Positions 21,401-60,900 of a DNA stretch of 64,000 nt are shown one piece after another; position 1 is the stretch's first letter; the number at the start of each line of letters is the position of its first letter. The translations under genes were made by a program, and so were the position numbers. The DNA lies in the NCBI GenBank assembly GCA_964019135.1, contig OZ025265.1:22357143-22421142 (forward strand), given 5' to 3'. The DNA comes from Arenicola marina (lineage: Eukaryota > Annelida > Polychaeta > Arenicolidae). The notes below the pieces were generated by a model that was given only the letters and a program-made list of their open reading frames with translations, was not told where the DNA came from and searched no databases.

Positions 21401-24400
21401 CAAAAATAGCTACCCCCACCCCTAAAAAACACAAAAAACAACAACACAACTTATCCATACATTTGTGGGAGCCGCCATAGTCACGTGGTACCGTGCGCGA
21501 CTGCAGACTGACAGGTTGCGGGTTCGAATCCCGCCCCCATGCAACGTCCGGGGTAGTTTCATCTCTTCAACTCATTGTCCATTGAATTCCTTCCCAGTTT
21601 AGGCTTCTTGCCGCCAAAAATGGCCTACAACACAATGATCATAATCTGCATCAGTATCCGCACAAATTGTTGTTGCTAATTCAGTTAATACAATGTTTCA
21701 CTCTCGCCGATAGGTCGCGCTGACGACACTGTCGCCGCCTGGCGGTCGCTGTCGCTGAAGTTCTCGGATCACGAGTACGAGAGTCCTCTGGATCTCATCC
21801 TGCAGACCGGACGCTACTCTCCCGTGTTCAACGCCGACTCGGCCTACGACTTCCACAATGCCTTACAGAAAGGTCCCGCGGCCTTCAAGCAGTTCGTCCT
21901 CACATACCCCATCAAGTGAGTGTATACACAGCGCCTTACAGAAAGGTCCCGCGGCCTTCAAGCAGTTCGTCCTCACATACCCCATCAAGTGAGTGTATAC
22001 ACAGCGCCTTACAGAAAGGTCCCGCGGCCTTCAAGCAGTTCGTCCTCACATACCCCATCAAGTGAGTATATACACAGCGCCTTACAGAAAGGTCCCGCGG
22101 CCTTCAAGCAGTTCGTCCTCACATACCCCATCAAGTGAGTATATACACAGCGCCTTACAGAAAGGTCCCGCGGCCTTCAAGCAGTTCGTCCTCACATACC
22201 CCATCAAGTGAGTATATACACAGCGCCTTACAGAAAGGTCCCGCGGCCTTCAAGCAGTTCGTCCTCACATACCCCATCAAGTGAGTATATACACAGCGCC
22301 TTACAGAAAGGTCCCGCGGCCTTCAAGCAGTTCGTCCTCACATACCCCATCAAGTGAGTATATACACAGCGCCTTACAGAAAGGTCTCGCGGCCTTCAAG
22401 CAGTTCGTCCTCACATACCCCATCAAGTGAGTATATACACAGCGCCTTACAGAAAGGTCCCGCGGCCTTTAAGCAGTTCGTCCTCACATACCCCATCAAG
22501 TGAGTATTTATGATAATGCACCGCTTCGTGCGACCTGCACAAATGGGGTATTGGTACAGGTGGGTGTGATGTGGTACACACCTGCGATAAGACTTGCGTG
22601 TACGGATTGTATGAAAAGGTAATCACCACAACAAAGTCACATTAAAAAAACCACCATATCACATAAATGGTTGACAGAAAGGTTGATGATTTAATCATCG
22701 CTGATAAACCGTAATTTTTTGAAATAGAAACAGGCTATTTTGTTCCGGTGTATCACATGCCCTACTCACTAAAAAATATCAGTAAATAATATTGTTTAAC
22801 GATATTATACTAGTAATAATATCGTGAATACTTTCCAATAATACTGGTTCTAAGTAGGGCGGATGCAGGAATTTGAAAATGTGGGAGGGCGGGGGGGGCA
22901 AACTTGTCTCAGACGGCCTAAATTTTACATTGGAAAACGGCATTCGTCCTCAAAAAGCGGGAGGGGGGGGGGGGGTGGTCGGACCCATAGTACCCCCCCT
23001 TAATCTTAATTTTTTTCATACATTAATAACATTTCATCAAATGATTTCATCATCATGGTCGTTTTTTCTCTAACCATTTAAATTATTGCGGATCTGGCTC
23101 TCTCCCTTCCAGTCTGGATTCCACCCTGGAGGGTCTCCGGAAGATGCCTGACTCCTACTACCACCAGTACTACCACAGTCAGATGACGTACGACTTCGAC
23201 GCCAAGGACGGCAAGCGACGCATATCCAGATTCCGGGTAATCCCGACGGACGGACATCCGGAAACGGGACGCCTGTCGGCAGCGGAGCAGAAGGAGTCTT
23301 GGCATAATCTGTAAGTGGAATCGATCCCCTCTGTCATCGCATCTCAACGCAACTTTTGAAGTTAAAGTTGCATGTGGAGTTGTTTCGCTGTTTTTGAATG
23401 CCAAATTTGCGTATAAGAACACAAACCTAAGGCCTTAAGGTTCATAACAGACAATAAACACCTACCATATCGCTCACCAATTATCTGCCAATGAGCAAAA
23501 CATTTCAAATTCATGAATTGTCCGCCACAAAAATGAAAACTTGTGCTGATTTGAAACGTCATAAACGTGTGTACAAAAGTCGTTTACCGGTGCCATCGAC
23601 AGGGGCGCCCAAGCGCTAAATTATATGAGACAATAGAAGCGTCCGGAGCGCCACTTTTTCTTTGGCGGTGGCCGTTGACACTGCTTGTGGTCAAAGGTAA
23701 CATTTCCTGTTTATGTTTATTTTGGTACAGCCGTTGCAACGGTCAGCTCCACATGTAACTTTAAGCCATTGTTGTTTTATTCCCACGAAGGTTAAGTCGA
23801 ATCGCCCCCCCCCCCTCTCTCACCAAATCACAGCAAAACTTTTTAAATGTCCGTTTTGTGCACATTAGGGTTAAAGCTAGGCAAATAGTGGTTTAAAAAA
23901 TACTCTATATTGCTTTACAATGCGGATACAGGCAGAACAGGCAAGGACGGGTAAGATGTCACAACTAATTTTTGTTACAGCTAGATAAAGGAATGAGACA
24001 TGATATAAACCAATAACTTAATTCTTAAATTTCCTGTTGAAACAAGAAACCTTCAGGGACAATAAAAGATTTGGATGAAATATGACAAGATTTGCCGAGA
24101 CCGGGTTTCCAGCCGAGGACCTATTGATGTGCAGTCAAATGTTGTACCACTAGATTTTTAGGCCGGTTGGGGGAGCAGGTGAGGGAGTGGGTGGGGTGAG
24201 GATTAAGACCATCTCGAAACTGCAGACCGGAGTCCTGGGGCAATGGTGGAATTCTGGGGCCGGACGGCCAGATACACAACCTTTCTCCCTGCCCCACCCC
24301 CACCCACACACTGCTTTCTTCGCCTGTGATATATTAATATTTGTTGCTACTTTCAGTTGAAATTCTATCATTTGCAAACATATCTTGGAGGTGATCGAGG

Positions 24401-25910
24401 GTTAATTTTATATGGACAATTAATATCAGTAATGTGTTAATAGCCAAACCTTTTAAAAATAGCTTCATTTTGCGAATCAGTTTTGTTGGGCATTATTCAC
24501 AGGAAAGAAAATATACGCTTTGAGAGTTGGTAAGTATATTTTGGGCATGTAGCTGTATATTTGTCGTCACTCAACAAAAATGATTATTTTATCTGTCGCG
24601 CAGAAAATTTAGCCCTTCATTAGGTGGCATAGTAGTATATGACTAGACGGCTAGTTAGCGAAATTTAGCTAGTAGTGACATATGGTGAAAGTAGTGACTT
24701 TGAGCAAATGAAATGTATCCCTGCATAAGTTTACAATCACATAACGTAAATCCCTTTAAAAGTAATATTATCGTTTAACTTCTGTCATGCATACGCCTAT
24801 GTCAGCAAAGCTGTTTTTAATTCATACATATTTACATTGGTTGCATAATCTAGGACACACTACAATAACACTTAAATAATATCTCTGCGATACCTTATTT
24901 CTTGAAGGTTTTCAAGGTATGTTTCTTGTTCCAAGAATTTATTTTCAAAATCATTAATGTCATGATTTTGAACAGGATCCTGTCCGGGGAAGACAACTCT
25001 CCGATGGCTTACCTCCGTGACGAGTTCCAAGAGAGAGTGCAAGAGAGTGGCGCCACCTATCGGCTGCAGATCCAACTACACGAGTGTCAAAATGGCGACA
25101 GCCACTCGTGGTACAACCCCAGCCTGCCCTGGGATGACGAGGTCACTCCCTGGCTGGACCTGGCCACCATTCGACTTACCACCATTCTACCGGATGACGT
25201 CACCGAGATGACGCGCTTCAATATCGGTCACATGCCGCGAGAGACGCTGGGATATCCCGCTCCATTCAGGTATTGGCCGGGTTAGGGGAGGTGTGTGTGT
25301 GGGGGGGGGGGGGGGGGGGCGGTGCGTTGCGGGAGGCCAGAGTGTGAAATTGGGAGTTAATTCAGGCAGCCTGGTGGTGGAAAAGATGACGCCTCAAATG
25401 AGGTCTAATTGGAGTAATATGATACTGTTGCGCTTGGAGAAAATTCAGTCACATTGGACTAGATTGGCTCAAAATTATCCTTATCTAGTATCGCAGCTAA
25501 GATGCAATGATACATTTATGCCAAGGTACAGTTGCCAAACTGCTAAACTTCATTTTTTTGACAACATAAAGAAATGTAGTAATTTGGGGTCCGTTGCTAT
25601 GGATTTTGGGTGGGGGCGGGCAAACAGTCATTACCCAAGGAATTATTGTAGATATGACATTTATATATATATTGCTAATGAGGCATAGCTTCTACGCAAT
25701 CTTTACCCTTGGCGGCAGCGGTAGATGGACGGCTTGGAGTTCCCTGCACAATACAACATGTGATGATGACCTTTATTTTCAATGTCATCTCCCCCACCCC
25801 CCTCCCTCCGTAGCAACGACGACTACAACATCGTGCCCTACCTGCGAGAGGAGACTTACTGGGCATGCGCAAAGCACCGGAACAAGGACCCGGATAACAC
25901 GCTGCGCGGA
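18440..25910 (+). CDS. Catalase-related (AOS-like) haem domain, exons 1-6, residues 1-375
   Basis: GGRATHVTGVG holds Thr76-His77, matching the Thr66-His67 distal pair of coral AOS; true catalases have Val before the His. The proximal Arg-x-x-x-Tyr motif is LREETY, with Arg360 and haem-ligand Tyr364. The catalase-fold segments FFVPGRMFEIRARHAN, SRFRVIP and RFNIGHMP are in order. At the distal Asn position (coral Asn137) the sequence is DLILQTG, giving Gln148. The haem pocket is otherwise complete, so an active haem enzyme is likely: allene oxide synthase, hydroperoxide lyase or epoxyalcohol synthase. The exact reaction cannot be read from sequence. Confidence 0.88.
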
Positions 25911-28900
25911 GAGTCCGTCGAGTACTTGCTGCACGTGGTCACCGGGAACCAGGCTGCGGCAGGGAACGAGGACCCCAAGTGTGACATCTACGTCTGCCTT
26001 GTCGGTCAGTTTGAGGGATACGGACCCGGGGGGAGGGACTTAATACATTGCTGGGTTTAAGGGGGTTTCATGGTAAAGCGCCCCCCCCCGTTTTTCACCG
26101 CCAAAATCCGCTCGGTGGGGGCGTTTTACCGCCCAAAATCCGCTCGGAAGGGGCATTTTACCGCTAAATTCAGCAAAAAGAGATATTAATCTCATTCACA
26201 AATAGTTCAGTGTTATCCTTACGACTGGAATATTTTTATGCGGGGTAAAATTTCCGTTCGAATATAGTGTAGTGTTTTTCTTTCGACCGTGGTACTTTTT
26301 GTATGTATATGTATAGATCCTGCGTTAGATCCACCTAAATAGCCAACATAAACATTCAATTATCCCTCTATCCATTGCAACGTATACTCCCAGCTCAGTT
26401 GGTAAGCAGGCTTATCTGCACACCAAAAGGTCGTGGGTTCGCACCCTGGCACCTGCATCTGGGGCAAGTGTCATCCAAGCACACGTCCTTGTCATTAGAT
26501 GTTTCTTGGCCCACTTTAGCCTTAATCGCATTGATCAATGATTCCGTTCCAATGACGTAGTATAGTATGTTTACACTGTCGCTGTTGCCCTCTCAGGCAC
26601 GGAGGGACGGACAGCCTATCTGGAGCTGAGTCGACGGGTCAAGACGGACTTCCTCGCCGGCGGCAAGTGCACCTTCCACCTGGTGGACAAGTACATCGGA
26701 GAGTTTCAATGCTGCAAGGTACCCTGCAAAGTGTCCTGTTGACACAGAACTGAACATTGTTTTAAAGTCGCTTTATCGATTAAAAAAATGAACTGAATAT
26801 TTTATATATATTTAAAGAGCCACATTTTGTTTTTGACACTATGGTCCTTGTCTTTTTGTTTGGAAGTATAATTAAACATCTACGCAAATAATTACTAACA
26901 AATCTGCCAGAAATTGAAGAAACACAAGTATAACTTTTCATATTTACAAATGCTTAAGCAGCGACAAGAGCCCAAAAATGATTGGTACCGTATTCCTATT
27001 GTCATGTTGTGTGCTCAAAATGGGAAGTTTGACTGGTTACTATATTAAGTCTTACAGAAATGAAACAAAGGTCATATTTGCAGGTGTTACTGAGCGAAAA
27101 CAGCACAAATCTGACTGATTCTCCTAACCCATATATAGCATTATAGGTATTTAAGGAAATGACTGGTTTCCTTAATCCCTGTATCACATTATAGGTCTTC
27201 AATGACAGAAAAGGGTACATATCTGCCTGGTTCCCCGTACCCCTGTGTCACATAGGAATTCAACAAAAGGAAAGGGCACAAATCTGACTAGTTCCCCGTA
27301 CCCCTGTGTCACATAGGCATTCAACAACAGGAAAGGGCACAAATCTGACTGGTTCCCCGTACCCCTGTGTCACATAGGAATTCAACAAAAGGAAAGGGCA
27401 CAAATCTGACTGGTTCCCCGTACCCCTGGGTCAAATTACAGGTCTTCAAGGAGAGGAAGGGGCACAAGTCGGACTGGTTCCTGGAGTACATGGTGGTAAG
27501 CACGCCATACAATAACCGCTGCCACACCCTGCCCTGCTACCGGTGGTTCACGGACCCCACCCCGCTCATCGTGCTGCGCGATGGCAGGGCCCAGCTATCT
27601 CACAACGAGGATGACTACTACATGAAGAGGCTGAGGCAGTTCGAGGTCACTGCTCGACAGCAGGTGTTTAAGTGGAGGGACCAGGACTTGGACCCAGCCT
27701 TCAAGTGAGTCAAGTGTTACCGCTCGCTGAATGGAAGTCAAAAGGGCAAAATCTGAGATATAATAATTATTGTATATCATATAATTTCACACTCCGAAAG
27801 AAATCCAGAAGTTTACCCGCAGTTTACTTTTTATGCAGGATTACTGTAAACTGATGTTTGCAAGGTCAAGAAAGAAGCCCTCCCAAAAGCACTTATATAT
27901 GATGTGTACCAGGTTTTTGTGAAAGTCTTATGCTGCACTAACCCTGCAAAATTATTGCCAAAGGGTGTGAGTTGTCGTATTCCTAAGTTCTGTTGAAAAC
28001 CGTGGTGCCCTGTCTGTCTCCCAGAGGGTTCCCAGGATACTCTGCGGCCGGAAGTGAGATGGATGACCTCCCTGGGGACATGCGCACTGACGAAATCCGG
28101 ACGTTGCTGGCTGAGTGGAGCAGACACTTGGATGGCAAGAACTCGCGTAAGTCTCGTGGTGAAAGATCTCATATCAAGTCTCGCAGTCGTACAAAACCCT
28201 GTCGTCACAAAGATGGTCAACCTTCGATGATAAACTGATGACAAATATCCATATAAGAAGCCTTGACGACAGTTTTCCAGTCAAGTTTATCGAGAATACT
28301 TCCTTCCCTCCGTATCCCTCTGGACTAGGTGGCGCTAAATGTTTCTGATCTGCATCTGATATAGTTCACAGGTCTACCTACCCAACGTGTGCAAATGTGG
28401 CTTAATTAAAATAATTAATTAATTCACTCAATGGCTACCCACCCCCAAAGATCAATAGGTAAGCGGGCTAAACTGCAGATCAACAAGTCCTTGGTTCGAA
28501 ATTTGGCACCTGAATCTGGGGGAAGTTGCATACACTCGCATGTCATTGTCTCGAGAGGTTTCTCGGCCCCGATGTAGTCGTCTTCATGTACACCAGAGCA
28601 GCCTACAACTGTTATATTCTGGTGTGCGTTGGACACGTGAATACACTTGACAAACTGCCATGCTACATATTGATGTTTTATTAGTGCGTGCGTTCAGCAC
28701 GGCTGCCGACGTAAAAATTGACCAAGACGGCAGAGAGAGAGGTAGTCATGTGATAATCCGACGTAGGGGCAGAGGTCAAGTTAATCATGGTTCTCAACCA
28801 ATTACATTAGAGCACTATACAGCATCATAATGTAACAACAACACACTAATATTTTCATTTCATTTCTGTTGCGCAGCTCAATGGGCTAGAGCGCTCGCAC

Positions 28901-31900
28901 TGAGTGCTCTGGTCACCTGAGAGCCTAACGGGCACGTGGTTTAATGGCTAGCGCCTCGCTGTGGCCATGTCTGTGTGGTCGCAGGATAAAGATCCCATGT
29001 ACTTCTTGGCAAAGAGTAGGGGGTTACCCCGGGGACATGGCTCCACTATCCCTCTTCCTTCTCCCATTTACGCGATATGACCAAAACTGGTTAAAGCGTC
29101 CTGAACATTACAACAATCGTTTCTGTTTGCCACGTTGCAGTGCTGAAGGCGGTGCGGCACTTCTTCAAGATCCGGAAGAGCAAGGTGGGACAGGACTACG
29201 CGGAGGCCGTGGCCGAGAACCTGGAGAACCACGAACAGTACAACACCCTGCAGCACGTCCTGCGGCACTGGAAGGATGACGAGGAGTTCGCCAGACAGGT
29301 GGGTGGGTGGGGCAGGGAAGTGGGGTAGGGAGGGCAGGGAGGGTGGGGCAGGGAGGGTGGGGCAGTGAGGGTGGGACAGGGATGTGGGGCCAGAGCAGTA
29401 CAACACCCTGCAGCACGTCCGGTGGCACTGGAAGGATGACGAGGTGAGGTAGGGTCAGAAGGTGGGGTAAGATGTTGGGGCAGGGCAGGGGGTGGGGCAA
29501 GAAGGGTACGGCAGGGCAGGGAGGTGGGTGGGGCAGCGATGTTGGGGCAGGGTATAGGTGGGGCATGGCAGGGTGGAGGGTGGGGCAGGGCAAGGAGGTG
29601 GGGCAGAAAGGGTGCGGCAGGGCAGAGAGGTGGGTGGGGCAGGAAGGTTGGGGCAGGGTATAGGTGGGGCAGGGCAGGGTGGAGGGTGGGGCAGGGCATA
29701 GAAGGGGGGCAGGGAGGTGGGGCAAGAGGGGGCACGGAGGTGGAGCAACAGAGGGGAAGAAAGTATTCTTGATAAAATTGATTGGAAAACTATTATCAGG
29801 ACTCCTATATGGATGGAGCATATTTTTCATCAGTTTACCATCGAAGGTTGATGACCTTTGTAACATCAGGTTTGGTACAATTGTGCGACTTGACATGCCA
29901 TTATTGGGCGCTTTAGCCGCGTTAGTCCATCACTTTATCTTGATTTGCATATAAATTACCTTTGACTCATACCTATATTGTGATATTTACTACGTTCTGT
30001 TTTTTAGATGCTCAACGGCGTCTTGCCGCTGAAGATCTCGCAGCTGGACGAGATCCCGCGTAACTTCCAAGTCACGGACGCCATGGTGGCTGGGCAGTTG
30101 GAGAGCGGATATACCATGGCCAAGGCGCTGCAGGTAACGGCTTGTCCTTCCTGGGCATTCGCACTTTAACATTATAAAAGTCTAATACAGCTTGTAAAAA
30201 TTGTGATTTTAAATCATCCAAACAAGCAGTTATCGTTTTCTACTCTAGAAATCCACGTCCATGAATAATTGTTCTGTCCACAATTATCTTCTGCGATTGA
30301 TGTTCTTGAATTCTGAATTCTAAAATCTGTATTCTGAATTCTGAAATCTGTGTTCTGAATTCTGAATATTAAATTCTGAATTATCAACCCTGAATCTTGA
30401 ATTTCGAATCCCAAATCCTGAATTCTGAATCTCGAATCCCGAACACTAAATCGTAAATCCTGAATTATAAATCCTGAATCCTCAATTCCGAATCCTCTTT
30501 TCGTCCCCAGGATGGCCGCCTCTTCCTGATATCCTACGAGGAGCTGGAGGAATTCGCCTACTACGACTCCGACGACGGCCTGGCCAGCATGGAGCGCCCG
30601 CCCTCCACCTCCCCCTACAACCCCGCCCCCTCCTCCTCCGGGTCCTCCAGCGACTCCAGCGACGACGAGGACCCCAGTCACGTGGCCGGTTCCACCCACG
30701 ACGTGTCCACGTCATCCTATGACGTCAGCACGGGGACGCCCAAGGCGAAGAAGTCCAAGCGGAAGAAGCCCAAGAAACCGAAGGGCTTAAAGAAGAAGGC
30801 GACCATCAAGCGAGCGCACTCCACCAACAGCCTGAAGAGGAAGAAGAAAAAGGCTGCAGACGCCTCGGGCAACACCAAGTATCTGTGCGCACCCATGGTG
30901 AGGAAAATAATGATTGGTATCTGTGCGCACCCATGGTGAGGAAAATAATGGTTGATATCTGTGCGCATCCATGGTGAGGACAATAATGGTTGATATCTGT
31001 GCGCACCCTTGGTGAGGACAATAATGGTTGATATCTGTGCGCACCCATGGTGAGGACAATAATGGTTGATATCTGTGCGCATCCATGGTGAGGACAATAA
31101 TGGTTGATATCTGTGCGCACCCTTGGTGAGGACAATAATGGTTGATATCTGTGCGCATCCATGGTGAGGACAATAATGGTTGATATCTGTGCGCACCCAT
31201 GGTGAGGAAAATAATTGTTGATATCTGTGCGCACCCATGGTGAGGAAAATAATGGTTGATATCTGTGCGCATCCATGGTGAGGACAATAATTGTTGATAT
31301 CTGTGCGCACCCATGGTGAGGACAATAATGGTTGATCTGGGCGCACCCGTGGTGAGGAAAATAATGATTGGTATCTGTGCGCACCCATGGTGAGGACAAT
31401 AATGGTTGATATCTGTGCGCACCCATGGTGAGGAAAATAATGGTTGATATCTGTGCGCACCCATGGTGAGGACAATAATGGTTGATATCTGTGCGCACCC
31501 ATGGTGAGGAAAATAATGGTTGATATCTGTGCGCATCCATGGTGAGGACAATAATTGTTGATATCTGTGCGCACCCATGGTGAGGACAATAATGGTTGAT
31601 ATCTGTGCGCACCCATGGTGAGGAAAATAATTGTTGATATCTGTGCGCACCCATGGTGAGGAAAATAATGGTTGATATCTGTGCGCATCCATGGTGAGGA
31701 CAATAATTGTTGATATCTGTGCGCACCCATGGTGAGGACAATAATGGTTGATCTGGGCGCACCCGTGGTGAGGAAAATAATGATTGGTATCTGTGCGCAC
31801 CCATGGTGAGGACAATAATGGTTGATATCTGTGCGCACCCATGGTGAGGAAAATAATGGTTGATATCTGTGCGCACCCATGGTGAGGACAATAATGGTTG

Positions 31901-34900
31901 ATATCTGTGCGCACCCATGGTGAGGAAAATAATGGTTGATATCTGTGCGCACCCATGGTGAGGACAATAATGGTTGATATCTGTGCGCACCCGTGGTGAG
32001 GACAATAATGGTTGATATCTGTGCGCATCCATGGTGAGGACAATAATGGTTGATATCTGTGCGCACCCGTGGTGAGGACAATAATGGTTGATATCTGTGC
32101 GCACCCGTGGTGAGGGAAATAATGGTTGATATCTGTGCGCACCCGTGGTGAGGGAAATAATGGTTGATATCTGTGCGCACCCGTGGTGAGGGAAATAATG
32201 GTTGATATCTGTGCGCACCCATGGTGAGGACAATAATTGTTGATATCTGTGCGCACCCATGGTGAGGACAATAATTGTTGATATCTGTGCGCACCCATGG
32301 TGAGGAAAATAATGATTGGTATCTGTGCGCACCCGTGGTGAGGGAAATAATGGTTGATATCTGTGCGCACCCGTGGTGAGGGAAATAATGGTTGATATCT
32401 GTGCGCACCCATGGTGAGGACAATAATTGTTGATATCTGTGCGCACCCATGGTGAGGACAATAATGGTTGATATCTGTGCGCATCCATGGTGAGGACAAT
32501 AATGGTTGATATCTGTGCGCACCCATGGTGAGGACAATAATGGTTGATATCTGCGCGCACCCATGGTGAGGACAATAATTGTTGATATCTGTGCGCACCC
32601 ATGGTGAGGGAAATAATGGTTGATATCTGTGCGCACCCAGGGTGAGGACAATAATGGTTGATATCTGTGCGCACCCATGGTGAGGACAATAATGGTTGAT
32701 ATCTGTGCGCACCCAGGGTGAGGACAATAATGGTTGATATCTGTGCGCACCCATGGTGAGGACAATAATGGTTGATATCTGTGCGCACCCGTGGTGAGGG
32801 AAATAATGATTGGTATCTGTGCGCACCCATGGTGAGGACAATAATGGTTGATATCTGTGCGCACCCATGGTGAGGAAAATAATGGTTGATATCTGTGCGC
32901 ACCCATGGTGAGGAAAATAATGGTTGATATCTGTGCGCACCCATGGTGAGGAAAATAATGATTGGTATCTGTGCGCACCCATGGTGAGGACAATAATGGT
33001 TGATATCTGTGCGCACCCATGGTAAGGACAATAATGGTTGATATCTGTGCGCACCCATGGTGAGGACAATAATGGTTGATATCTGTGCGCACCCATGGTG
33101 AGGACAATAATGGTTGATATCTGTGCGCACCCATGGTGAGGACAATAATGGTTGATATCTGTGCGCACCCAGGGTGAGGACAATAATGGTTGATATCTGT
33201 GCGCACCCATGGTGAGGACAATAATGGTTGATATCTGTGCGCACCCATGGTGAGGACAATAATGGTGGATATCTGTGCGCACCCATGGTGAGGACAATAA
33301 TGGTTGATATCTGTGCGCACCCAGGGTGAGGACAATAATGATTGATATCTGTGCGCACCCATGGTGAGGACAATAATGGTTGATCTGGGCGCACCCATGG
33401 TGAGGACAATAATGGTTGATATCTGTGCGCACTCATGGTGAGGACAATAATGGTTGATATCTGTGCGAACCCATGGTGAGGACAATAATGGTTGATATCT
33501 GTGCGCACCCTTGGTGAGGACAATAATGGTTGATATCTGTGCGCACCCATGGTGAGGACAATAATGGTTGATATCTGTGCGCACCCATGGTGAGGACAAT
33601 AATGGTTGATATCTGTGCGCACCCTTGGTGAGGAAAATAATGATTGGTATCTATGCGCACCCATGGTGAGGAAAATAATGATTGGTATCTATGCGCACCC
33701 TTGGTGAGGAAAATAATGGTTGATATATGTGTGTTCCCATGGCGAGGAAAATACTGATTAATCATCAACTGTAATTAGTATGGATGGTTGGGGCACCCAT
33801 GGTAAGGAAAATAAATTATTTAGGGCTAAGGCTTGAGTTCCATATACACTAAGACGGCCTACAAGACCAGCATTTCATTCCATTTACGTATCAATATTTC
33901 ATATCAATGTTTATATCACCCTGATTCATTGGTTGCAGGTGATGTTGTACCTGCGAGGGGGCACTACGCTGGTTCCCCTCGCCATCCAGCTGACCACCAT
34001 CCCCGGCCACTCCCCTGTCATCTTCACCAAGAACGACGACCACGGCGAGTACTCTGATTGGCTGGTGGCCAAGATGTGGGTTCGCGTGGCGGAAGCAAAC
34101 GTCCATCACCTCGTCGGTCACGTGCTCGGGACGCACCTGATGATGGAACCCGTTGCCCTGGCAACGGCGCGCAACCTGCCTTCGGTTCATCCGATCAGCA
34201 AGCTGCTTATCCCGTACCTGCGCACCATCGTCACGGTCAATACCATCTACCGGAAGTGTGTCTTGCAACCGGAAGATGGCGCTCTGGCGGAAGTGCTGGC
34301 GCTAGGTGCGCATGGCCTTGACCTAATTAGGAGGGAGTTTCACTCGTATGAACGCTTCGCGAGCTTCAGTCTCCCTGATCACTTTGCCGCCAGGGGGACG
34401 CTGGACTCGGAGGTAAGTCAAATTAAAGGGCAAACCGATTGATGAATATAGCCTCTTGTATTCAGTTTATGGCAGAGATGAATATTATCATGTGGTAATT
34501 TCGTGGCTTAATATTGACACGACCCATAAATGCATATTCCTATTGAAACTTCCTGCGAAGTAAAATAGGTAATTAGGCTTTATATGTTCATCACAAGTAA
34601 CCTTAAGAAAAATGACATATTCTATACATCGCAGCGCATGGGAAGTTAACATGGGACCAATCAAATCCTCAGACGTTTTGTCTATATAATTCTATATTTA
34701 GTTTATGACTTTAATTTGAGATACCATTTTCAAATTTATGTTATTTGTAATCAACATTTATCTAAATTGACGTCAGGATGAGTATCATCTACCCAGTGCT
34801 AACCCTCAAAAATAATTCTGGAGGTATACGCACTCTCATCGTAGCCCGTACGTTCACGTATATCCCTTATAATGTAATCAGGCTATACAACCATTAATAC

Positions 34901-37900
34901 TCGCCACTCACCCTCGACCTCGCTCAGGAGCTGCCGGGCTATTACTACCGGGATGACGTCCTCAAGCTCTGGCAAGCCGTCGAGGACTTTGTCACCGAGG
35001 TCGTCTGCATATACTACGAGGATGACAACGATGTGAGTAACTCTTTTGCTAAGAGGGCCTCCCCTCCTAGCTCTATCGATACTTCATGATTGGTGGTATA
35101 TTCAGGGCGCTTTAACCACTTTTGGTCATATCGCGCCAATGGGAGAAGGAATAGAGAATGGAGCCATGTCCCCCGAGGGTAACACCCTACTCTTCGCGAA
35201 GAAGGACATGGGATCTTTATCCTGAGACCACACAGACATGGCCACAGCGGGGCTCGAACCACCGATCCACGTGCCGTTAGGCTCTCAGGCGGCCAGATCA
35301 CTCAAGAGAGTAACTCTTTTGCTAAGAGGGCCTCACGTCCTAGCTCTATCGATACTTCAAAATTGTTTGTATATTCAGGACGCTTTAACCACTTTTGGTC
35401 ATATCGCGCCAATGGAAGAAGGAAGGGAGAATGGAGCCATATCCCCCGGGGATAGCACCCTACTCTTTGCGAAGATGCACATGGGATCTTTATCCTGAGA
35501 CCACACAGATATGGCCACAGCGGGGCTCGAACCACCGATCCACGTGCCGTTAGGCTCTCAGGCGGCCAGAGCACTCAATGCGAGCGCTCTAACCCACTGA
35601 GCTATCGGGGCGGCCCCCGATACTTCATGACGCTCTTGGAATGAAACATTAACAACAAAGCATCCAGAATTCAGGACTTGTAGCCCCGATCCTTTTCTAT
35701 AACCACGTGCCCTAGATTATGCTCTGCTTGGCCAGCTACGCGCGCTTTGAGTTCCACCAATCTATATCATGCGTGATATGATACAGGTGAATTATAACTT
35801 ACAATATTAACCTACCGCTATCACAATGCATCCCGCAACCAGTCTGCATTAAATTCCAGCATGTTAATTTGACATTTATTTTACCGTATTAGTATCCGCA
35901 ACATTTTAATCTCCAACGTGTTTCTTTGCCGGCCGCTAGGTGGAGCAGGACGACGAGCTGGCCAACATGCTGGAGGACCTGGTCCATAACGGCTACCACG
36001 ACCGCCTGGACCTCCCGCGTCGCTTCACCTCCCTCGGGGACCTGGTCAACTTCTGCACTACCGTAATCTTCACCGTGTCCGCCCAGCACTGCGCGCTCAG
36101 CCGCGGCATGGTCGATGTATACGCCTACTGCCTGAACGCGCCTCCCTTCATGATGCGGCCGCCGCCCAGGGCCAAGCGACCCGCCGGGTACACCGAGGAG
36201 GAGATGAAGGGCCTGCTGCCCCAGCCGGACCTGGCTGAGCGCTACCTGGGGGCCGTCCTCCTCCTCACCTGCCAGGGCAAGGACAACAAGGTCAGGCGCG
36301 GCCACGTGGCCGGGGTGTTATTATCGTATATCGTACTTCGGTATTATCGCTCATTATGCAAATATTAAGTGGTGGTAATTTTTGCTACTTCTATCACTAC
36401 TAGTGCTACCAGGACTAATACCCCTACTGTTACTAATGCTATCACTACCACTAATGTTATCACTTATATCATTGCTACGACAATTCCTATCACTGCAACA
36501 ACGACTGTACTGCTACCACTACTACTTTGGCTCTCATTATATACTGCTACCACTACTACTTTGGCTCTCATTATATACAGCTACCACTACTAGTTTGGCT
36601 CTCATTATATACTGTTATCACTACTACTTTGGCTCTCATTATATACAGCTACCACTACTAGTTTGGCTCTCATTATATACTGCTATCACTACTATTTTGG
36701 CTCTCATTATATACTGCTACCACTACTACTTTGGCTCTCATTATATACTGCTACCACTACTACTTTGGCTCTCATTATATACTGCTACCACTACTACTTT
36801 GGCTCTCATTATATACTGCTATCACTACTACTTTGGCTCTCATTATATACTGCTACCACTACTACTTTGGCTCTCATTATATACAGCTACCACTACTACT
36901 TTGGCTCTCATTAAATACTGCTATCACTACTACTTTGGCCCTCATTATATACTGCTACCACTACTACTTTGGCTCTCATTATATACTGCTACCACTACTA
37001 GTTTGGCTCTCATTATATACTGCTACCACTACTACTTTGGCTCTCATTATATACAGCTACCACTACTACTTTGGCTCTCATTATATACTGCTACCACTAC
37101 TAGTTTGGCTCTCATTATATACTGCTACCACTACTACTTTGGCCCTCATTATATACTGCTACCACTACTACTTTGGCTCTCATTATATACTGCTACCACT
37201 ACTACTTTGGCTCTCATTATATACAGCTACCACTACTACTTTGGCTCTCATTATATACTGTTATCACTACTACTTTGGCTCTCATTATATACTGCTACCA
37301 CTACTACTTTGGCTCTCATTATATACAGCTACCACTACTAGTTTGGCTCTCATTATATACTGCTACCACTACTACTTTGGCTCTCATTATATACAGCTAC
37401 CACTACTACTTTGGCTCTCATTATATACTGCTACCACTACTAGTTTGGCTCTCATTATATACTGCTACCACTACTACTTTGGCTCTCATTATATACTGCT
37501 ACCACTACTAGTTTGGCTCTCATTATATACTGCTACCACTACTACTGCTATCACTGATACTACTGCTGCTATCACTACTACCTACTACCTACTACTGCAC
37601 TAACTATATTACTACTGATATCAAGATTATTGCTAGCACTGCTACCACTATTACTACTGCTATCAATATCATTTCTGTCACTATCACTAGTAATGATATT
37701 ATATGATATGCACGTGGTTTAGTTGTTGTTAAATTATTCAACAAATTGACAATTCTGTCGTCCATACATAATATACACGCTGGGTTAAATTATTAGACTA
37801 CGACAGAGAACTAGCTCACTGCATTAACGCCCGTTCTTGATCCCTGACAGTCACGATTTAATGGCCATCTCTCTATATATAGATACCCTGATCGTGTGTT

Positions 37901-38137
37901 TCCATGGTAGCATGTTTCCTTGGTATCTCATGGTAACGATTGCCCTCTGTCTCCTAGGTTACGCTGGGCCAGTACCCGGAGCGGATCTTCACGGATGAGA
38001 CGACGCTGATCGCCATCAAGAATTTCCAGAACCGACTGGCGCAGATATCCGAAGAAATCGGTTATCGCAACTCGACCCTCAGCTGTGCTTACGACTACCT
38101 CTTGCCAGAAAACATCCCTGTCGGCATCGACGTGTGA
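18440..38137 (+). CDS. Allene oxide synthase-lipoxygenase (AOS-LOX) type fusion, 16 coding exons, 1174 aa
   Basis: Exons: 18440-18553, 19140-19377, 21714-21915, 23113-23310, 24976-25269, 25814-26004, 26597-26718, 27442-27704, 28025-28146, 29141-29298, 30008-30133, 30511-30897, 33939-34412, 34928-35032, 35940-36290, 37958-38137. All introns are GT-AG and all joins keep frame (3525 nt with stop). Residues 1 to about 375 are a catalase-related haem domain, about 380-490 a PLAT domain, and the rest a lipoxygenase catalytic domain. In coral AOS-LOX, the known relative, the LOX half forms an 8R-hydroperoxide of arachidonate and the haem half turns it into an allene oxide. Length is about 110 residues over the coral enzyme, mostly one Ser/Lys-rich insertion. 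The ATG has A at -3 and opens the first conserved exon. The fold assignment is sure; the chemistry is not, because several active-site positions differ. Confidence 0.93.
18889..19090. repeat. Short inverted-repeat element (MITE), intron 1
   Basis: ACCGGCCGCCTGAGTACCG at 18889 is inverted near 19012. GGCGGTTCTACGGTA recurs, followed by a GGTAGTCTAAGCCTAGCGG tail. A second copy lies at about 44290-44450 with the same tail order, in the channel gene intron. No TSD is evident. Confidence 0.6.
19520..19860 (+). repeat. Degenerate AATGTCAATAAT repeat region, intron 2
   Basis: Short units built on GTCAATAAT, including three near-identical 27 bp units with CCACCATTGATCATAATG at about 19715-19785. 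It is AT-rich and translates to Asn/Asp/Ile strings; not coding. Confidence 0.7.
20560..20830. repeat. Interspersed GC-rich repeat, copy 1
   Basis: It holds TACTTAATACTTTTGCTG, GGCGTTTTACCGCC and TCCGCTCGGTAGGGGCG. A second copy lies at about 26030-26190 in intron 6, with GGCGTTTTACCGCC repeated twice. The class is unknown. Confidence 0.6.
20950..21115 (+). mobile_element. tRNA-derived SINE, family 2 (tRNA-Cys-like)
   Basis: The head has CAACTGCAGACCAAC, like a tRNA-Cys anticodon loop with GCA, then a B box GGGGTTCGAAACCCG. The tail contains TCTCCCGGGAGTTC. Other family members: 21465-21600, 26385-26560, 28445-28620, 51605-51780 and probably 63940-64000. The heads are not functional tRNA genes, since stems are broken. 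Confidence 0.65.
21465..21600 (+). mobile_element. tRNA-Cys-like SINE, intron 2
   Basis: An A-box-like TAGTCACGTGGTACC, CGACTGCAGACTGAC (anticodon GCA region) and a perfect B box GGTTCGAATCC are in correct order over about 73 nt. A non-tRNA tail with CTCATTGTCCATTGAATTCC follows. It lies just upstream of exon 3. Confidence 0.65.
21860..22507 (+). repeat. 73 bp x 9 array made from the end of exon 3 plus its 5' splice site
   Basis: Units start at 21860, 21933, 22006, 22079, 22152, 22225, 22298, 22371 and 22444, exactly 73 bp apart. The first unit is the true exon 3 end (CCTTACAGAAAGG to CCCATCAA) plus GTGAGT. Each later copy repeats about 56 bp of exon and the donor GTGAGT, with near-zero divergence. 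Use of any later donor would add an in-frame TGA straight after the first ATCAAG, so only the first gives the full protein. Confidence 0.95.
22508..23112. other. Rest of intron 3, with a G-tract MITE
   Basis: It is AT-rich, with a G-run MITE relative (about 22856-23000; AAAACGGCATTC core, two G-runs, a C-run). It ends with a pyrimidine-rich acceptor at 23112. Confidence 0.5.
23311..24975. other. Intron 4 (1665 bp)
   Basis: It is mostly unique AT-rich sequence. A C-run lies near 23803-23815. No tandem array and no second gene seen. Confidence 0.7.
25270..25813. other. Intron 5 (544 bp)
   Basis: A G-run near 25300-25320 follows the donor GTATTG. The rest is unremarkable. Confidence 0.7.
25911..27545 (+). 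CDS. PLAT/C2-like domain, exons 6-8, residues about 380-490
   Basis: The domain runs from GESVEYLLHVVTGNQ through CDIYVCLVGTEGRTAYLEL and DWFLEYMVV to CHTLPCYRWF. This matches the usual LOX PLAT strand order, with the conserved Asp-Trp (464-465). It normally docks the enzyme to membranes, in some cases with Ca2+. It joins the haem domain directly through a short linker, as in coral AOS-LOX. Confidence 0.85.
26030..26190. repeat. Interspersed GC-rich repeat, copy 2 (intron 6)
   Basis: It shares the ACTTAATAC opening and the GGCGTTTTACCGCC and ATCCGCTCGG blocks with 20560-20830. The intron also holds a tRNA-Cys-like SINE at about 26385-26560. Confidence 0.6.
26385..26560 (+). mobile_element. 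tRNA-Cys-like SINE, intron 6
   Basis: A-box-like CAGCTCAGTTGGTAAGCAGG, TATCTGCACACC (anticodon region) and GGTCGTGGGTTCGCACC (B box) are followed by a tail with TTGTCATTAGATGTTTCTTGG. It ends about 35 bp before exon 7. Confidence 0.65.
27084..27441 (+). repeat. About 61 bp x 6 decayed copies of the exon 8 3' splice site and exon start
   Basis: Units begin at 27084, 27147, 27195, 27256, 27317 and 27378; the true exon 8 begins at 27442. Each unit ends in an AG after CCCCTGTGTCACATAG-like sequence, then opens with a copy of the exon start (AGGAAAGGGCACAAATCTGA against exon AGGAAGGGGCACAAGTCGGA). The copies nearest the exon are most alike; the far ones are worn. Confidence 0.88.
28445..28625 (+). 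mobile_element. tRNA-Cys-like SINE, intron 9
   Basis: GGTAAGCGGGCTAAACTGC, then AGATCAACAAGTCC and B-box-like TGGTTCGAAATTT, with a tail holding TCTCGAGAGGTTTCTCGG. The order matches the other family 2 copies. Confidence 0.6.
28870..29105 (+). mobile_element. SINE family 1, intron 9
   Basis: GCAGCTCAATGGGCTAGAGC (A box), the CACCTGAGAGCCTAACGG block, AAAGATCCCATGTACTTC and a GCGATATGACCAAAACTGG tail. It ends about 35 bp before exon 10, so its 3' end may supply part of the branch-point region. Confidence 0.75.
29299..29765 (+). repeat. G-rich array in intron 10 with a stray copy of exon 10 sequence
   Basis: Irregular units on GTGGGGCAGGGCAGG fill the stretch. At about 29397-29446 a copy of the exon 10 segment encoding EQYNTLQHV-HWKDDE is embedded and runs directly into GTGAGGTAG, a plausible donor. 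Both strands carry long frames only because the repeat lacks stops. Confidence 0.85.
30290..30505 (+). repeat. Degenerate TTCTGAA-type short repeats, intron 11
   Basis: Seven- to nine-base units (TTCTGAATT, TCCTGAATC, ATTCTGAAA) run up to the exon 12 acceptor. No coding content. Confidence 0.75.
30511..30897 (+). CDS. Exon 12: LOX segment with a Ser/Asp- and Lys-rich insertion
   Basis: The exon opens with DGRLFLISYEELEEF (residues 677-691), a conserved LOX stretch, and closes with KYLCAPM (799-805), the next conserved block. Between them lie about 105 residues where coral AOS-LOX has about 40 and mammalian LOXs fewer. The insertion has a Pro/Ser part, an acidic Ser part (SSSDSSDDED, CK2-like) and a strongly basic tail (KAKKSKRKKPKKPKG and LKRKKKKAA) resembling a bipartite nuclear localisation signal. 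It sits at a surface loop in LOX structures. The exon ends with CCCATG and donor GTGAGG at 30898, the seed of the 38 bp array that fills the next intron. Confidence 0.85.
30880..33760 (+). repeat. 38 bp x about 75 array seeded by the exon 12 5' splice junction
   Basis: The unit contains ATCTGTGCGCACCCATGGTG followed by AGGACAATAATGGTTGAT or close variants. The first unit is the real junction: exon 12 ends CGCACCCATG and the donor is GTGAGG at 30898. Later copies keep GTGAGG with few changes (GGACAATAAT against GGAAAATAAT; CATCC, CCGTGG, CCAGGG variants). A few units lack 3 bp. As 38 is not a multiple of three and the unit holds a stop (TGA) in the exon frame, only the first donor gives the protein. 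It fills nearly all of the 3041 bp intron 12. Confidence 0.97.
33939..34412 (+). CDS. Exon 13: LOX iron-site helix with His861 and His866
   Basis: SDWLVAKMWVRVAEAN is followed by VHHLVGH, the HxxxxH motif whose His861 and His866 match the first two iron ligands. Next come THLMMEPVALATARNLPSVHP and SKLLIPYLRTIV, all LOX hallmarks. The loop usually reading GGGGH is LGAHG here (927-931), a departure from the family near the substrate channel. Confidence 0.9.
34413..34927. other. Intron 13 (515 bp)
   Basis: AT-rich, with no repeat or second gene seen. Confidence 0.7.
35033..35630 (-). mobile_element. SINE family 1 in intron 14, with 13-bp TSD and 273 bp tandem duplication
   Basis: CGATACTTCATGA flanks the insertion at about 35079 and 35618, a clean target duplication. 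The SINE is inverted, with its A-box end near 35600. A 273 bp unit that begins 2 bp inside the exon 14 donor (GAGTAACTCTTTTGCTAAG) and runs through most of the SINE is present twice: landmarks at 35035/35308 and 35281/35554. Confidence 0.85.
35940..38137 (+). CDS. Exons 15-16: LOX C-terminus with altered iron ligands
   Basis: TVSAQHCALSRG supplies His1048, the third histidine ligand. Four residues on, where LOXs have Asn or His (rarely Ser), this protein has Ser1052. YAYCLNAPPFMMRPPP and RYLGAV are conserved. The last exon ends GYRNSTLSCAYDYLLP, then ENIPVGIDV and stop TGA (38135-38137). The C-terminal residue, whose carboxylate binds iron, is Val1174 instead of the near-universal animal Ile. 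Some fungal Mn-lipoxygenases end in Val, from memory. The frame is certain, so these are genuine substitutions unless the assembly is wrong. Confidence 0.9.
36520..37545 (+). repeat. 34 bp x about 30 array, intron 15
   Basis: Units are close to TACTACTTTGGCTCTCATTA followed by TATACTGCTACCAC, with CAGCTACC, TAGTTTGG and TATCAC variants. Irregular CTA/CAC trinucleotide sequence flanks both sides. It begins about 230 bp after the exon 15 donor and is not exon-derived. Frames through it encode Tyr/Leu/Thr strings and are not genes. Confidence 0.93.
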
Positions 38138-38768
38138 GGGGACCGAGAAGGGGGGGGGGGTAAGCTGACGAAACGAGACAGTGAAGAGGGGGAAGAGGAG
38201 AGTAAGGGGGCGCAAGGGAGGGTAGTGGAGAGAGAGTGATGGAGTTACTATTATGGTATTTGTCGAAACATGAGACGTTCATCTTAATTAATGTTTATAG
38301 ATAGACTGACGCAATAGGTGTGGATATTTATATGTATATATTTCTTGGTCGTGCGATGATATCGTCTGATATGCAGATGGGTAGAATTTTGCTAGAGATT
38401 TTTATTGTTGTTCATTACCACCGCAATTAACTATATATACGCTTGGCACAAATCGTGTTTACAAGAAAAAATCATTAGTTATTTTCCCATGATATTTGAA
38501 TATCGTTTTGTTTCACGTTATTAATGCTTCACATAATGTACTGCAGTATTAGGTCCTGTTCATATGTGGTTAATGACAAGCTTAGAACGATTGCAACCTG
38601 TTGCATTCATGCTATTTAATGCATCCGTTTCATATATATATACATATATATTATATGCTTCCATGTTGTAATCCTTACAGGACTCTGCGAGATCACCGTG
38701 AGGTTTACGTGCTATGCACCAGGATCCTAACTTTGCCATCAATCGCTTTGGCTAGTTTTATTATCAGT
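38138..38768 (+). other. 3' flank of the AOS-LOX gene
   Basis: The 3' UTR starts with a G-run at 38150-38160. No AATAAA appears soon after the stop, so the poly(A) site is not placed. Confidence 0.5.
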
Positions 38769-39173
38769 TATTATTACGAGTTGGTGGGCATGTTAACTAG
38801 TACAATAGCGTTACATCTGAAGGCCTCTAAAATGCCGTATTCTGACCCAAACCGCCCTGCTGCCCATGCAATCGACAATCGTTGCCATGGCGACGCTGCA
38901 TAGAACAATGAAACATGACGTCACGCACAAAAGAATTGTAGTTATAGCTTTAAATAGCCCGCTTCCATGACTAGTTGCCTAGTTGCACATGCTATGTTTC
39001 TTGGCAACATATATATGGCATAAAAAGGCGACTGGCCAACTATATGTGGAAAGGCTTGCGATTTGCGGACAGTCAGTCCCAAAATGCTTTACTTTTGTCG
39101 TTGCATGCGGAAATTAAACCAAAGAAGCAGAGACAAGTCAACGCCTTAAATTTAAATTCAACTCGTAATAATA
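38769..39173 (+). mobile_element. MITE copy 2 (intact, about 405 bp) plus flanking hairpin arm
   Basis: It starts TTATTACGAGTTGGTGGGCA and ends AACTCGTAATAATAG. It is the reverse-orientation match of 5047-6422 without the nested element, so it serves as the empty site for that insertion. Sequence 39178-39270 repeats one arm of the 4862-5041 palindrome. Confidence 0.8.
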
Positions 39174-39270
39174 GTAATAGCGCGAGTTTTGCTTGGCGTT
39201 AGGCATTTTATTGGCCCGACATCAAGCTGTAGCAGCCCGCCAATTTTCATTATCGGCCCGAGGCCGTCAT

Positions 39271-41469: not shown

Positions 41470-41586
41470 CAGGGGCGGATCAAGGAATTTGCAAAGGGGA
41501 AAGTTGCTCTCTGAAAACTTGCGACCGGAGTGGGGGGGGGGGGGGGTGCAACCCCCCTACCCCCCCCGCCTCTAGATCCGCTCCTG
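41470..41586. mobile_element. Small MITE with CAGGGGCGGATC termini
   Basis: The left end CAGGGGCGGATC (41470-41481) and right end GATCCGCTCCTG (41575-41586) are inverted. CAATG flanks both sides (5 bp). The inside is a G-run then a C-run. It is the most complete member of the G/C-tract family in the window. Confidence 0.65.
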
Positions 41587-42732: not shown

Positions 42733-42975
42733 TTACATAGAATAATGAGATGGTTTCCCAATAGACATGGACGTCAATGAAGTGTTTTTCCTGTGACTCA
42801 AAGGTGTGAGAATCTCCTTTCTTCTTGTGTACTTAAGATCGCATTTAGACACTGTGACAGCGCCACCGGTGATAGAATCATGATAGTACTGTAATACGTA
42901 CGTCTCAAGCAGCGACAGCAACCCCCCATTCTTAGTCGCATCTCTCCCCGGCTTCATATTTGGTCGTATTTCATT
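42733..42975 (-). CDS. Probable last exon of the channel gene (C-terminal tail)
   Basis: A weak acceptor (ATAATTAG) is followed by an open phase-0 frame NEIRPNMKPGRDATKNGGLL... of 80 codons ending in TAA. Its length and phase fit a terminal exon, but the tail after M4 is longer than usual and nothing in it is diagnostic. The true tail could lie elsewhere in the intron. Confidence 0.4.
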   Translation of the reverse strand, partial: NEIRPNMKPGRDATKNGGLLSLLETYVLQYYHDSITGGAVTVSKCDLKYTRRKEILTPLSHRKNTSLTSMSIGKPSHYSM

Positions 42976-57900: not shown

Positions 57901-60900
57901 TAATCCAGTATACAGATTGGAAACGTTACCTACCAGTCGGCAATTCATCATGTCATTCCTTACTCTTTAATGAACCCAAAACAGAAATAGCCATGTATTT
58001 TTCGGAATATTTTTTGTCCAGCATGTCTATTTGCTCAGTCGCCTAAGGTTATAATGTCATCCCTTAGTTGTATATATCCTGGGTATGTTCCAGGGTGGGT
58101 GACGTCACCCCCTCTCCCTTCCTTCATTTGATTACTTCACCCGCCCCCCCCCCCCCACTAACACCAACCCCCCACGCCCCACGAGCGGACAACAATGGCG
58201 GAGCATAGAATTGTGCGCGGAATCGTGATTGGTTTAATTCCGAATGCCCAGCAGAGATCGGGATGCCAATTACCTCGCGATGAGATTTATCGGCAAGACA
58301 TTCATAGAATCGCACCCCTGCATTGAACGAATCGCTCTCCGAGCTAGTAATGTCATTGCGTACTAGCGTGGAGCGAGACCACATAATTGGATTTCGAATA
58401 TAGAATTATGGGCGGATGTTGTTTTTTATTGCCAATTGTGTTTTATTTTTTATTACCTATGGCGGCTTTAGGACGTGGATTCGTCTAGTGTCAATTAATG
58501 CGCCGCTTCTGCAGCAACATGCCCCATAGGATTGGCTCAATCCCGTATCCAGACCGTCCTTACGCTGACGGAGAAGATGTTCCAGATGAAGCAAAGGGAT
58601 TAAGATATCCAGATCAAGCAAAAGGATAAATATATCCAGATTAAGCATTCAGAATCCAGACCAGCCTTACCGTGACGGAGAAGACGTTCCAGGGGAAGCA
58701 AACGGATTAAGATATCCAGATCAAGCATTCAGAATCCGGACGAACCTCACCGTGACGGAGAAGAAGTTCTAGATGAAGCAAACGGATTAAACGATCCCGA
58801 TCAAGCATTCAGAATCCAGACCAACCTCACCGTTAAGGAGAAGATGTTCCAGGTGAAGCAAACGGATTAGGAGATCCAGATCAAACATTCAGAATCCAGA
58901 CCAACCTTACCATGACGGAGAAGATGTTCCGGAGGAAGCAAACGGACTAAGAGATCCAGATCAAGCATTCAGAATCCGGACCAACCTCACCGTGAAGGAG
59001 AAGACGTTCCAGATGAAGCAAGCGGATTAGGAGATCCATATCAAACATTCAGCATCCAGACCAGCGCTAGTCTTACCGTGACGGAGAAGATGTTCCAGAT
59101 GAAGTAGGCTGGTCGGCGGCCGGCCCTGCAGCGGACGATGAGTGCTGGCTGTGTCACCGAGGGGTCCGCCTTGTCACGGGGTAAGTCCTGCTTGTCGGAC
59201 TCGATGTACTTGTACAGATACCACTCCTGCTCGTCTATGAAGGATTGCTTGTAGATCTTGTGAATCTCTTCACTATCCTCCACCAGATCCACCTCCGTGG
59301 AGGGCAGGTCCGACATCAGGGAGACCGACAGATCCTGAAGGGGATTTACAAAGGATGATAATGACGACGTAAATGGTATAGTAGTTAGTCCCAGTAATCC
59401 AAGAGGAAACGATGTCGAGGCGGATCCAGGGCGGGGAGGCTGGGTCTTTTGAGGCATAACGCTGTTTTCCACCCGGTATCGTAAAAAAATCGGTTACTAA
59501 CTGGTCATTCCAAGCTTCAACAACTGACGAGCTATCGCAGGAGTTCTATCCTGAATCATGAAGATAAATTTGTCCCTCAAAATCCTTCCAGCTACATTAA
59601 TAATACTACTAAAACTTTATGGCTTACGCATGACTTACGAGTTACAGGGGAACAAATGAGGAATTATTGGCTAAGACAGAAGAGTGACTGACAGTCCTCG
59701 AAGTGGTCAATTAGGCTGTTATTCCGTTTACTAGATGGGCCGCTCACAAAAGTGAGGAACAGCGTAATGATCTCTTGTCGAGAAGACAAAACATTAAATC
59801 ATGTGAAATAATCAGTTCCGAGATCATGATAGTTAGTGTCCTCAGTTATGGGAGTCTGGAAGTAGAAGTGTCCAGTGTCGATTTTTGCAAAATTCTCAGT
59901 GTCGAATGTCCATTTTTCAAATTTCTCAGTGTCGAATGTCGATTTTTCAAAATTGTCAGTGTCGAATTTCCATTTTTCAAAATTGACAGTGTCGAATGTC
60001 AATGTTTCAAAATTGTCAGTGTCCAATGTCGGTGTTTCAAAAGTGTCAATATCGAATGTCGATTTTACAAAAATCTCAGTGTCGTGTCGTGTCGCTTTGT
60101 TTCAAAAATCTGTGTCGATGTTGCTTTTTCGGTCCCTCAGTCTCAGAATCTGGGGGTCAGTAGATTTTTCAAATATGCCTTTCTCGCGTGTCGCCATTTA
60201 CCACTTCCAGACCTCTACTTATTCCCTCCGGTACCATAGCAACGCTAGACGTACAATAAACACCGATTCTTTTCCACAGCAAGACAGCTGACAAGGGCAT
60301 TTTTGATTCAACGTTGACACGGATTCACAAGGCCATGAAAGGACAGGGTTCCGCGGCCGCCACATTAGTACCGCCTTGACTCGGTAGAGGACGCACGCGG
60401 CAGTTGTGTACGTGAGTTGCGAGAGAATTGAGGCTGCAGGGTGGTGTTGCTATGGAGATTGGATTGTGGGGGACACGACTCCTTGACCACAGTAGCAGAC
60501 TTGATTAGGTTTCCAGGTCAGTTCTAGCTCAGACTACACCCTTCATTCAGGCTGGTCATGTAGACACAGAGGTAAAGGATGGTAATGGAGTGACGTTGAC
60601 CAGGGAATGAAGGCCTCCACTGGGACATCCCCTTAAAAACCGAGGTCAAATGGCATACCAACGGCATTTGCATAAGTAGATTTAGCAAAAAGATCATTTG
60701 CATAATGTGTGTGGTTTGCGAGGCATATTTATGCTGTCGAGGTCACGTGGTCTTAAGCCACCGGGCAGCTCACAGGGGGAAGTAGAGGCCCTCTCACGTA
60801 GCCCACTCTGGGATAACGCCGAACTCCGTTCTTAAGGGCATATACATGGGGCCATTACTGACCGTAAGCCACTGGATAAAGCCAAAATCTCCAGACCACT

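Follow-up and report, generated by a model that had tools for sequence, protein, structure and literature searches.

We report here that splice sites of two genes in a stretch of annelid DNA, an allene oxide synthase-lipoxygenase (AOS-LOX) fusion gene and a channel gene, lie inside tandem arrays whose units run across the exon-intron boundary. The window, as the whole analysed stretch of 64,000 nucleotides (C20:22357143-22421142) is called from here on, thus contains what we think are likely to be minisatellites that run across exon boundaries, like those named "mirages" but with an annelid as host, arising from frequent local duplication combined with tolerance at splice sites. The boundary arrays are real and belong to a type already described, although the phylum is apparently new for it and they seem to be very common there.

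The arrays were delineated with 60-bp probes laid across splice sites and compared by BLAST, at the 31 AOS-LOX sites and then at all 35 sites of the window (31 in AOS-LOX and four in the channel gene), and with Tandem Repeats Finder (TRF). Spanning copies occur at 5/35 sites, cleanly at exons 3, 8 and 12 of AOS-LOX and at the channel donor, and in degenerate form at exon 10 (Table 1). A preliminary description of this DNA had listed six amplified edges among about twenty, with unit lengths of 38-273 bp. Four of these edges stand as clean arrays, with units of 38-80 bp, while exon 10 has only an old degenerate copy and exon 14 drops out, and the sites number 35 rather than twenty. Its further statement that donors and an acceptor are affected, on both strands, is borne out by the donors of exons 3 and 12 and of the channel gene (minus strand) and by the acceptor of exon 8.

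Table 1. Arrays, repeats and gene features of the window, with the evidence for each
Feature	Position in window	Strand	Evidence
Exon 3 donor array, 73-bp unit x ~9	21860..22507	+	TRF 99% matches; 8 extra spanning copies
Exon 8 acceptor array, 61-bp unit x 4.4 (TRF)	27210..27481	+	TRF, sequence, 4 spanning local copies
Exon 10 donor, two-copy duplication of exon end and donor region	29229..29488	+	Local alignment; 2-3 weak spanning BLAST matches
Exon 12 donor array, 38-bp unit x 76	30880..33753	+	Unit listing
Channel donor array, 80-bp unit x ~6	58608..59104	-	TRF 84% matches; 6 spanning local copies
273-bp x 2 repeat in intron after exon 14	35035..35578	+	No alignment of the second copy before 35035
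AOS-LOX fusion gene (catalase-like allene oxide synthase and PLAT/lipoxygenase), 16 coding exons	18426..38137	+	Spliced open reading frame, GT-AG introns, 3dy5, Pfam
Channel gene exon A	61323..61520	-	Open frame with AG/GT flanks; genome paralogues
Channel gene exon B	59077..59334	-	Weak Neur_chan_LBD PF02931, E 6e-4, under curated cut-off; paralogues on C20 and C8

The four clean arrays share a common architecture in terms of exon bases, splice site and intron bases, and differ in the details. First of all, each exon 3 unit consists of 56 nt of exon end followed by GTGAGT and 11 more intron nucleotides, with the first copy, after 21915, as the presumed functional donor; an exact 62-mer of this unit occurs seven times genome-wide, every time inside the exon 3 array. 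Second, the exon 8 unit joins an intron end, AG and an exon start. Its local copies are ~79% identical to the functional edge, degenerate copies continue upstream, and the functional acceptor would be the last copy (27441/27442). Third, the exon 12 unit contains 18 nt of exon and 20 nt of intron, with ATG followed by GTGAGG across the junction, and the first copy, after 30897, is the probable functional donor. GT is kept in 72 of the 73 full-length 38-mers, among which there are 23 variants, and with up to two mismatches allowed the 38-mer has 61 matches in the genome, none of them outside the exon 12 array. Finally, the channel unit carries ~27 nt of exon end, then the donor and intron, and the copy at 59077/59076 appears to be the functional donor.

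Two further edges differ from this pattern. At exon 10, the two copies (29229-29320 and 29390-29488) lie ~161 bp apart, the second is degenerate, and a G-rich array begins at the donor; the duplication is to be read as old. Exon 14 was rejected as an edge array, as its repeat starts at intron position +3 and the second copy contains neither exon bases nor the GT. A comparable arrangement is seen at L020:930-3272, where a 99-bp x 19 array begins at an exon's donor and includes almost no exon sequence.

The homogeneity of the arrays ranges from near-identical (exon 3, 99%) to degenerate (channel, 84%), as is expected of events of different age. The exon 3 and exon 12 units evidently arose in place, since their genome matches all lie inside their own arrays, and for these two a dispersed satellite was rejected as the source because the units are absent elsewhere in the genome. 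Within the exon interiors of the two window genes, a local copy was found at 5/203 probes, every one of which falls in the exonic portion of a unit that spans an edge, and the coding exon adjoining each array is intact. Repeats are error-prone in assemblies, and one piece from outside the window (L073) runs into masked or gap letters, so one might ask whether the arrays are artefacts, that is, collapsed or inflated repeats. However, the assembly is chromosome-scale, and in it arrays that differ in their units and contain variant copies are seen at numerous unrelated loci; we consider this explanation most improbable.

Each array presents the splicing machinery with surplus sites. Donor strength, which was scored for donors only by pairing with the 5′ end of U1, is -5.2 for all nine exon 3 copies, -8.5 to -9.5 for 75/76 exon 12 copies (-4.2 for the remaining one) and -8.5 to -8.8 for five channel copies, compared with -8.2 for the functional channel site; the sixth channel copy is degenerate or cut off. 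Decoy donors are therefore about equal to functional donors in U1 pairing, and the choice of the correct site thus probably rests on position. Read-through into the intron meets stops, immediately so past the exon 3 donor, and the AOS-LOX frame stays intact when the exon-proximal sites are taken. An alternative is that the decoys are selected for function, either providing extra U1 binding, for exon definition or for blocking premature polyadenylation, or serving as a reservoir of alternative ends. The exon 12 array lends this some colour, since in addition to the retained GT only 2/438 cells of GTGAGG are changed, compared with 94/2774 (3.4%) over all columns. Changes within an array are not independent, however, and counted by columns, 2/6 donor positions vary against 18/32 others, which is not striking. 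Furthermore, few of the units have a length divisible by three (1/12 listed), so that decoy use would shift the frame. Selection of this kind is thus, in our judgement, improbable.

The reading that we prefer is local duplication with tolerance at splice sites. Here, slippage or unequal exchange would constantly give rise to tandem duplications at a local scale in the genome. Those inside exons would be purged, while those straddling one splice site would survive, with the spliceosome pairing the exon with the nearest site, i.e. the first donor copy or the last acceptor copy. Surplus copies would remain as intron, multiply in place and homogenise, until drift breaks them up.

Whether junctions attract duplication beyond this is a separate matter, and the preliminary description had held that the arrays exceed what random placement would give. 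The window alone shows no clear sign of an excess over chance. Shuffled placement of the tandem arrays of the window gave edge overlaps at chance level, with 3.98 expected and 4 observed for the 26 window arrays (P 0.59) and 4.39 expected and 3 observed for AOS-LOX alone (P 0.93). When source units are placed in a collapsed AOS-LOX, 1.39 overlaps are expected, with P 0.14 for at least three and P 0.03 for at least four, counting exon 10; a looser source-unit null has P 0.21, which becomes 0.09 when two arrays are omitted. With 60-bp probes, the 5/35 edges compare with 62/657 intron points of the same gene (Fisher P 0.24) and with 87/1698 noncoding points of the window (P 0.035). Probes of 40 bp in the window give 3/35 edges versus 6.0% of intron (P 0.36), in an automated test that fails to pick up exon 8, the channel donor and the acceptor of exon L071 outside the window, all visible by eye or with longer probes. 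In terms of nearness, 6/11 AOS-LOX arrays are no more than 15 bp from a splice site versus 2.07 expected (P 0.006), in a test chosen post hoc.

An independent sample of 48 splice edges outside the window was gathered blind to repeats. It comprises 11 edges in 10-kb stretches, three channel paralogue donors and the 34 edges of 17 ClC exons. The 21 stretches of 10 kb were placed arbitrarily (3 at contig starts, 15 at 5.0 Mb and 3 at 30.0 Mb), exons in them were found by codon bias, and only placeable edges were kept. The ClC exons were selected by PF00654 rank and are rows 2-16, 18 and 20 of 29 matches; row 1 (stretch L009) is among the 11 edges, and rows 17, 19 and 21-29 were left out. The automated 40-bp probe detects spanning copies at 10/48 of these edges, namely 8/34 in ClC (L065 acceptor, L066 donor, L069 acceptor and donor, L070 acceptor, L071 donor, L072 acceptor and L073 donor), 1/3 among the channel paralogues (L057 donor) and 1/11 in the 10-kb stretches (L009 acceptor). 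The ClC exons L069 and L071 have boundary arrays on both acceptor and donor sides, that at the L071 acceptor being seen by eye only. A separate 94-bp array is present in the paralogue L057, at the homologue of the donor that is amplified in the window channel gene, whereas L058 and L059 are single-copy at this donor. For the 10-kb stretches alone, 60-bp probes give 1/11 edges versus 166/2553 points (P 0.52). The sample is small, several ClC exons lie in one gene, and L074 and L075 resemble recent copies of each other.

Against a pooled intron rate, taken from positions 20-250 bp from edges with each duplicated position weighted 1/(copy number + 1), edges outside the window are duplicated at 20.8% versus 9.7% of intron (binomial P 0.015), and all edges pooled at 15.7% (13/83) versus 8.1% (P 0.016). 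At least one duplicated edge is present in 8/21 gene groups. The excess persists among copies of at least 90% identity (9/83 edges versus 6.0% of intron; confidence interval (CI) of the difference 0.000 to 0.121) and of at least 95% identity (9/83 versus 4.8%; CI 0.018 to 0.129), so that slower decay of a conserved copy is not its whole cause. The corresponding values outside the window are 7/48 versus 7.0% (CI -0.001 to 0.159) and 7/48 versus 6.4% (CI 0.010 to 0.161). A per-edge matched control, on the other hand, gives 13 observed versus 16.95 expected and no excess (P 0.9988); it is biased, as arrays fill the truncated 250-bp flanks and the control then sees array only. The pooled comparison was adopted after both results were known. 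An edge excess over chance, roughly twofold outside the window, is thus supported by the independent sample to no more than a modest degree.

This excess weighs against duplication with tolerance as the full account, because random placement and tolerance alone do not predict it, and a bootstrap over 21 gene groups puts the edge-to-intron ratio at 1.94 (1.17-2.70) overall. Two further points lie on the same side: we infer the use of the exon-proximal copy from frame and homology, and the outside edges were placed by frame, AG/GT and homology, the L061 donor being uncertain. A different explanation, in line with the seeding proposed in the preliminary description, would make splice junctions preferred substrates, with duplication seeded by the sequence of the splice site or, where exon meets intron, by R-loops or breaks coupled to transcription. 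The excess outside the window (bootstrap ratio 2.15, 1.14-3.12), which is similar at both identity thresholds, the separate array at the homologous L057 donor and the post hoc nearness of AOS-LOX arrays to splice sites all count towards it. The comparison of window edges with intron of the same gene and the matched control, for all its bias, count against it, as does the fact that acceptors and donors are both affected though they have little sequence in common. Furthermore, GTRAG is present in 0/13 listed non-junction unit consensi (of ~22 such arrays), where shuffles average 1.98, and AGGT in 3/13, the same as in shuffles. A GT-rich seed motif was thus rejected, and the splice-motif version of seeding is not favoured. 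Overall, we regard junction preference as rather unlikely; on present data, the roughly twofold extra pull of junctions may reflect only that GC-rich exonic DNA is duplicated more often, which would come to light at edges alone. A broader proposal, which we put forward as tentative, is that junctions are preferred in this annelid lineage, at about twice the level of adjacent intron and with about one in six sites in its own array, and that mirages, independent in annelids and cephalochordates, would continually supply shifted boundaries and new introns.

The gene model on which most of the window edges rest was checked. The 16 coding exons of AOS-LOX join into a 1174-aa open reading frame without internal stop. 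Among proteins of known structure, its best match is the coral AOS-LOX fusion (PDB 3dy5, E 4.6e-165). The alignment covers residues 9-688 and 797-1172, the Pfam matches are PF00305 and PF01477, and a catalase-like AOS domain is followed by PLAT/lipoxygenase, as in a fusion of this type. Between residues 688 and 797, the alignment leaves out a stretch rich in Lys and Ser. The predicted C-terminal residue is Val (38135-38137); lipoxygenases usually end in a C-terminal Ile. In the intron after exon 4, ~400 bp (23362-23765) have at least 39 further matches of 98-99% identity, spread over many chromosomes, a lower bound as the best 40 of 1634 candidates were scored, and this segment is, to judge by those matches, a young dispersed repeat.

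Other repeats of the window are of different kinds. A ~1.9-kb element (55789-57691) with 62-nt terminal inverted repeats (92% complementary) is flanked by two blocks of one 52-bp minisatellite (55509-55788 and 57692-57844), as if a transposon had split the 52-bp array. A single Ser/Asp/Lys-rich open frame of 1509 aa (11402-15931) holds an in-frame coding tandem array (13633-14896) of 162- and 132-bp units, which are multiples of three, unlike the boundary arrays. At 51895-54978, 193 copies of a 16-bp unit leave frames open up to 693 aa, which looks like a false open reading frame made by a minisatellite. Searches of the window with Rfam at gathering thresholds and with ARAGORN gave no match, and a protein search of 5.8 billion sequences gave only three distant matches among the 8000 candidates scored.

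The host assembly contains 867,369,267 bp in 762 contigs, of which 18 contigs of 33-77 Mb sum to ~840 Mb and all the rest to ~28 Mb. The last contig, C762 (15,942 bp), is the mitochondrion, with the gene order cox1, cox2, atp8, cox3, nad6, cob, atp6, nad5, nad4L, nad4, rRNAs, nad1, nad3, nad2 and all protein genes on the plus strand; gene names were assigned from translations, and the rRNA places from gaps and one tRNA. In the passages compared, annelid mitochondria are described as having nad6/cob next after cox3, atp6 flanked by cob and nad5, an exchange of places between nad5 and nad4L/nad4, and nad3 lying between nad1 and nad2, the positions of atp6, nad5-nad4L/nad4 and nad3 being apparently confined to annelids and their kin (PMC2639372), and location of all genes on one strand is given as the annelid rule (PMC4505326). 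C762 shows every one of these features, and the host is thus an annelid in the wide sense and not amphioxus, which was rejected also on the 18 large contigs and the assembly size of 867 Mb. A hemichordate was rejected as well, since 23 chromosome-scale scaffolds are given for the two assemblies of PMC11175523. Minisatellites are abundant in this genome: 50 of them cover 37.8% of bases in the 21 other 10-kb stretches, compared with 22% of the window, so that the content of the window is not unusually high. One of these stretches, L021 (C3:30000001-30010000), contains a tandem tRNA gene cluster with a period of ~1.33 kb and 23 tRNA matches in its 10 kb.

The significance of these arrays lies in what they offer for the study of splicing and of intron evolution. 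The question of whether boundary duplication leads to introns or moves exon ends was raised, on the basis of a few genes, in the amphioxus globin paper (PMC3087553). Should arrays take in about one in six splice sites, many cases of all ages would be available in which to test intron creation or shifts of exon ends. Exon 3, with nine near-identical 73-bp donors, and exon 12, with 76 similar donors, amount to natural experiments in splice-site choice, as strength is about equal and mainly position differs. They are also a warning for gene prediction, since decoy copies could be called exons in such genomes. Potato RdRp is reportedly a case of intron gain by tandem duplication; here, on the other hand, existing splice sites are multiplied and no new intron is seen. 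The Rogers model of intron gain, as outlined in the amphioxus work, is alike in that duplicated AG/GT-bearing sequence can turn copies into intron (PMC3087553).

Among the open-licence papers listed, we found no annelid boundary-spanning arrays and no genome-wide count. Earthworm metallothionein loci have intronic minisatellites and duplicated fourth-exon copies that are absent from the transcript, and thus offer an annelid parallel, with no boundary-spanning arrays described in the passages compared (PMC12783039). Human variable internal tandem repeats at exon-intron boundaries account for 27 intron modifications and are similarly minisatellites that alter introns, but according to the portions consulted they are limited to genes of primate segmental duplications and are transcript-supported (PMC2812944). 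The closest system is that of the amphioxus mirages. These are described, in the excerpts compared, for the two globins BflGb6 and BflGb9, with Adh3 and other loci cited, at both boundaries, with RT-PCR suggesting normal splicing, with length instability and with a model of intron gain (PMC3087553); a further paper adds PGBD5 and cites TnC (troponin C) (PMC3902484). The likeness to mirages, already drawn in the preliminary description, is upheld, as units at exons 3, 8 and 12 and at the channel donor combine exon bases, splice site and intron bases just as described (PMC3087553, PMC3902484), which the exon 14 repeat does not. In both systems tandem units span 5′ or 3′ boundaries and AG/GT is kept in many copies; here, both kinds of boundary are affected in the window and at ClC acceptors and donors. 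Amphioxus mirages have units of 10 to ~160 bp and are reported, in the same excerpts, not to disturb splicing. The arrays described here differ in that the host is an annelid and not a cephalochordate, which is a matter of the naming taxon rather than of structure, in that one array reaches 76 copies, in that about one in six sampled splice sites is involved, and in that they are known from genome sequence alone.

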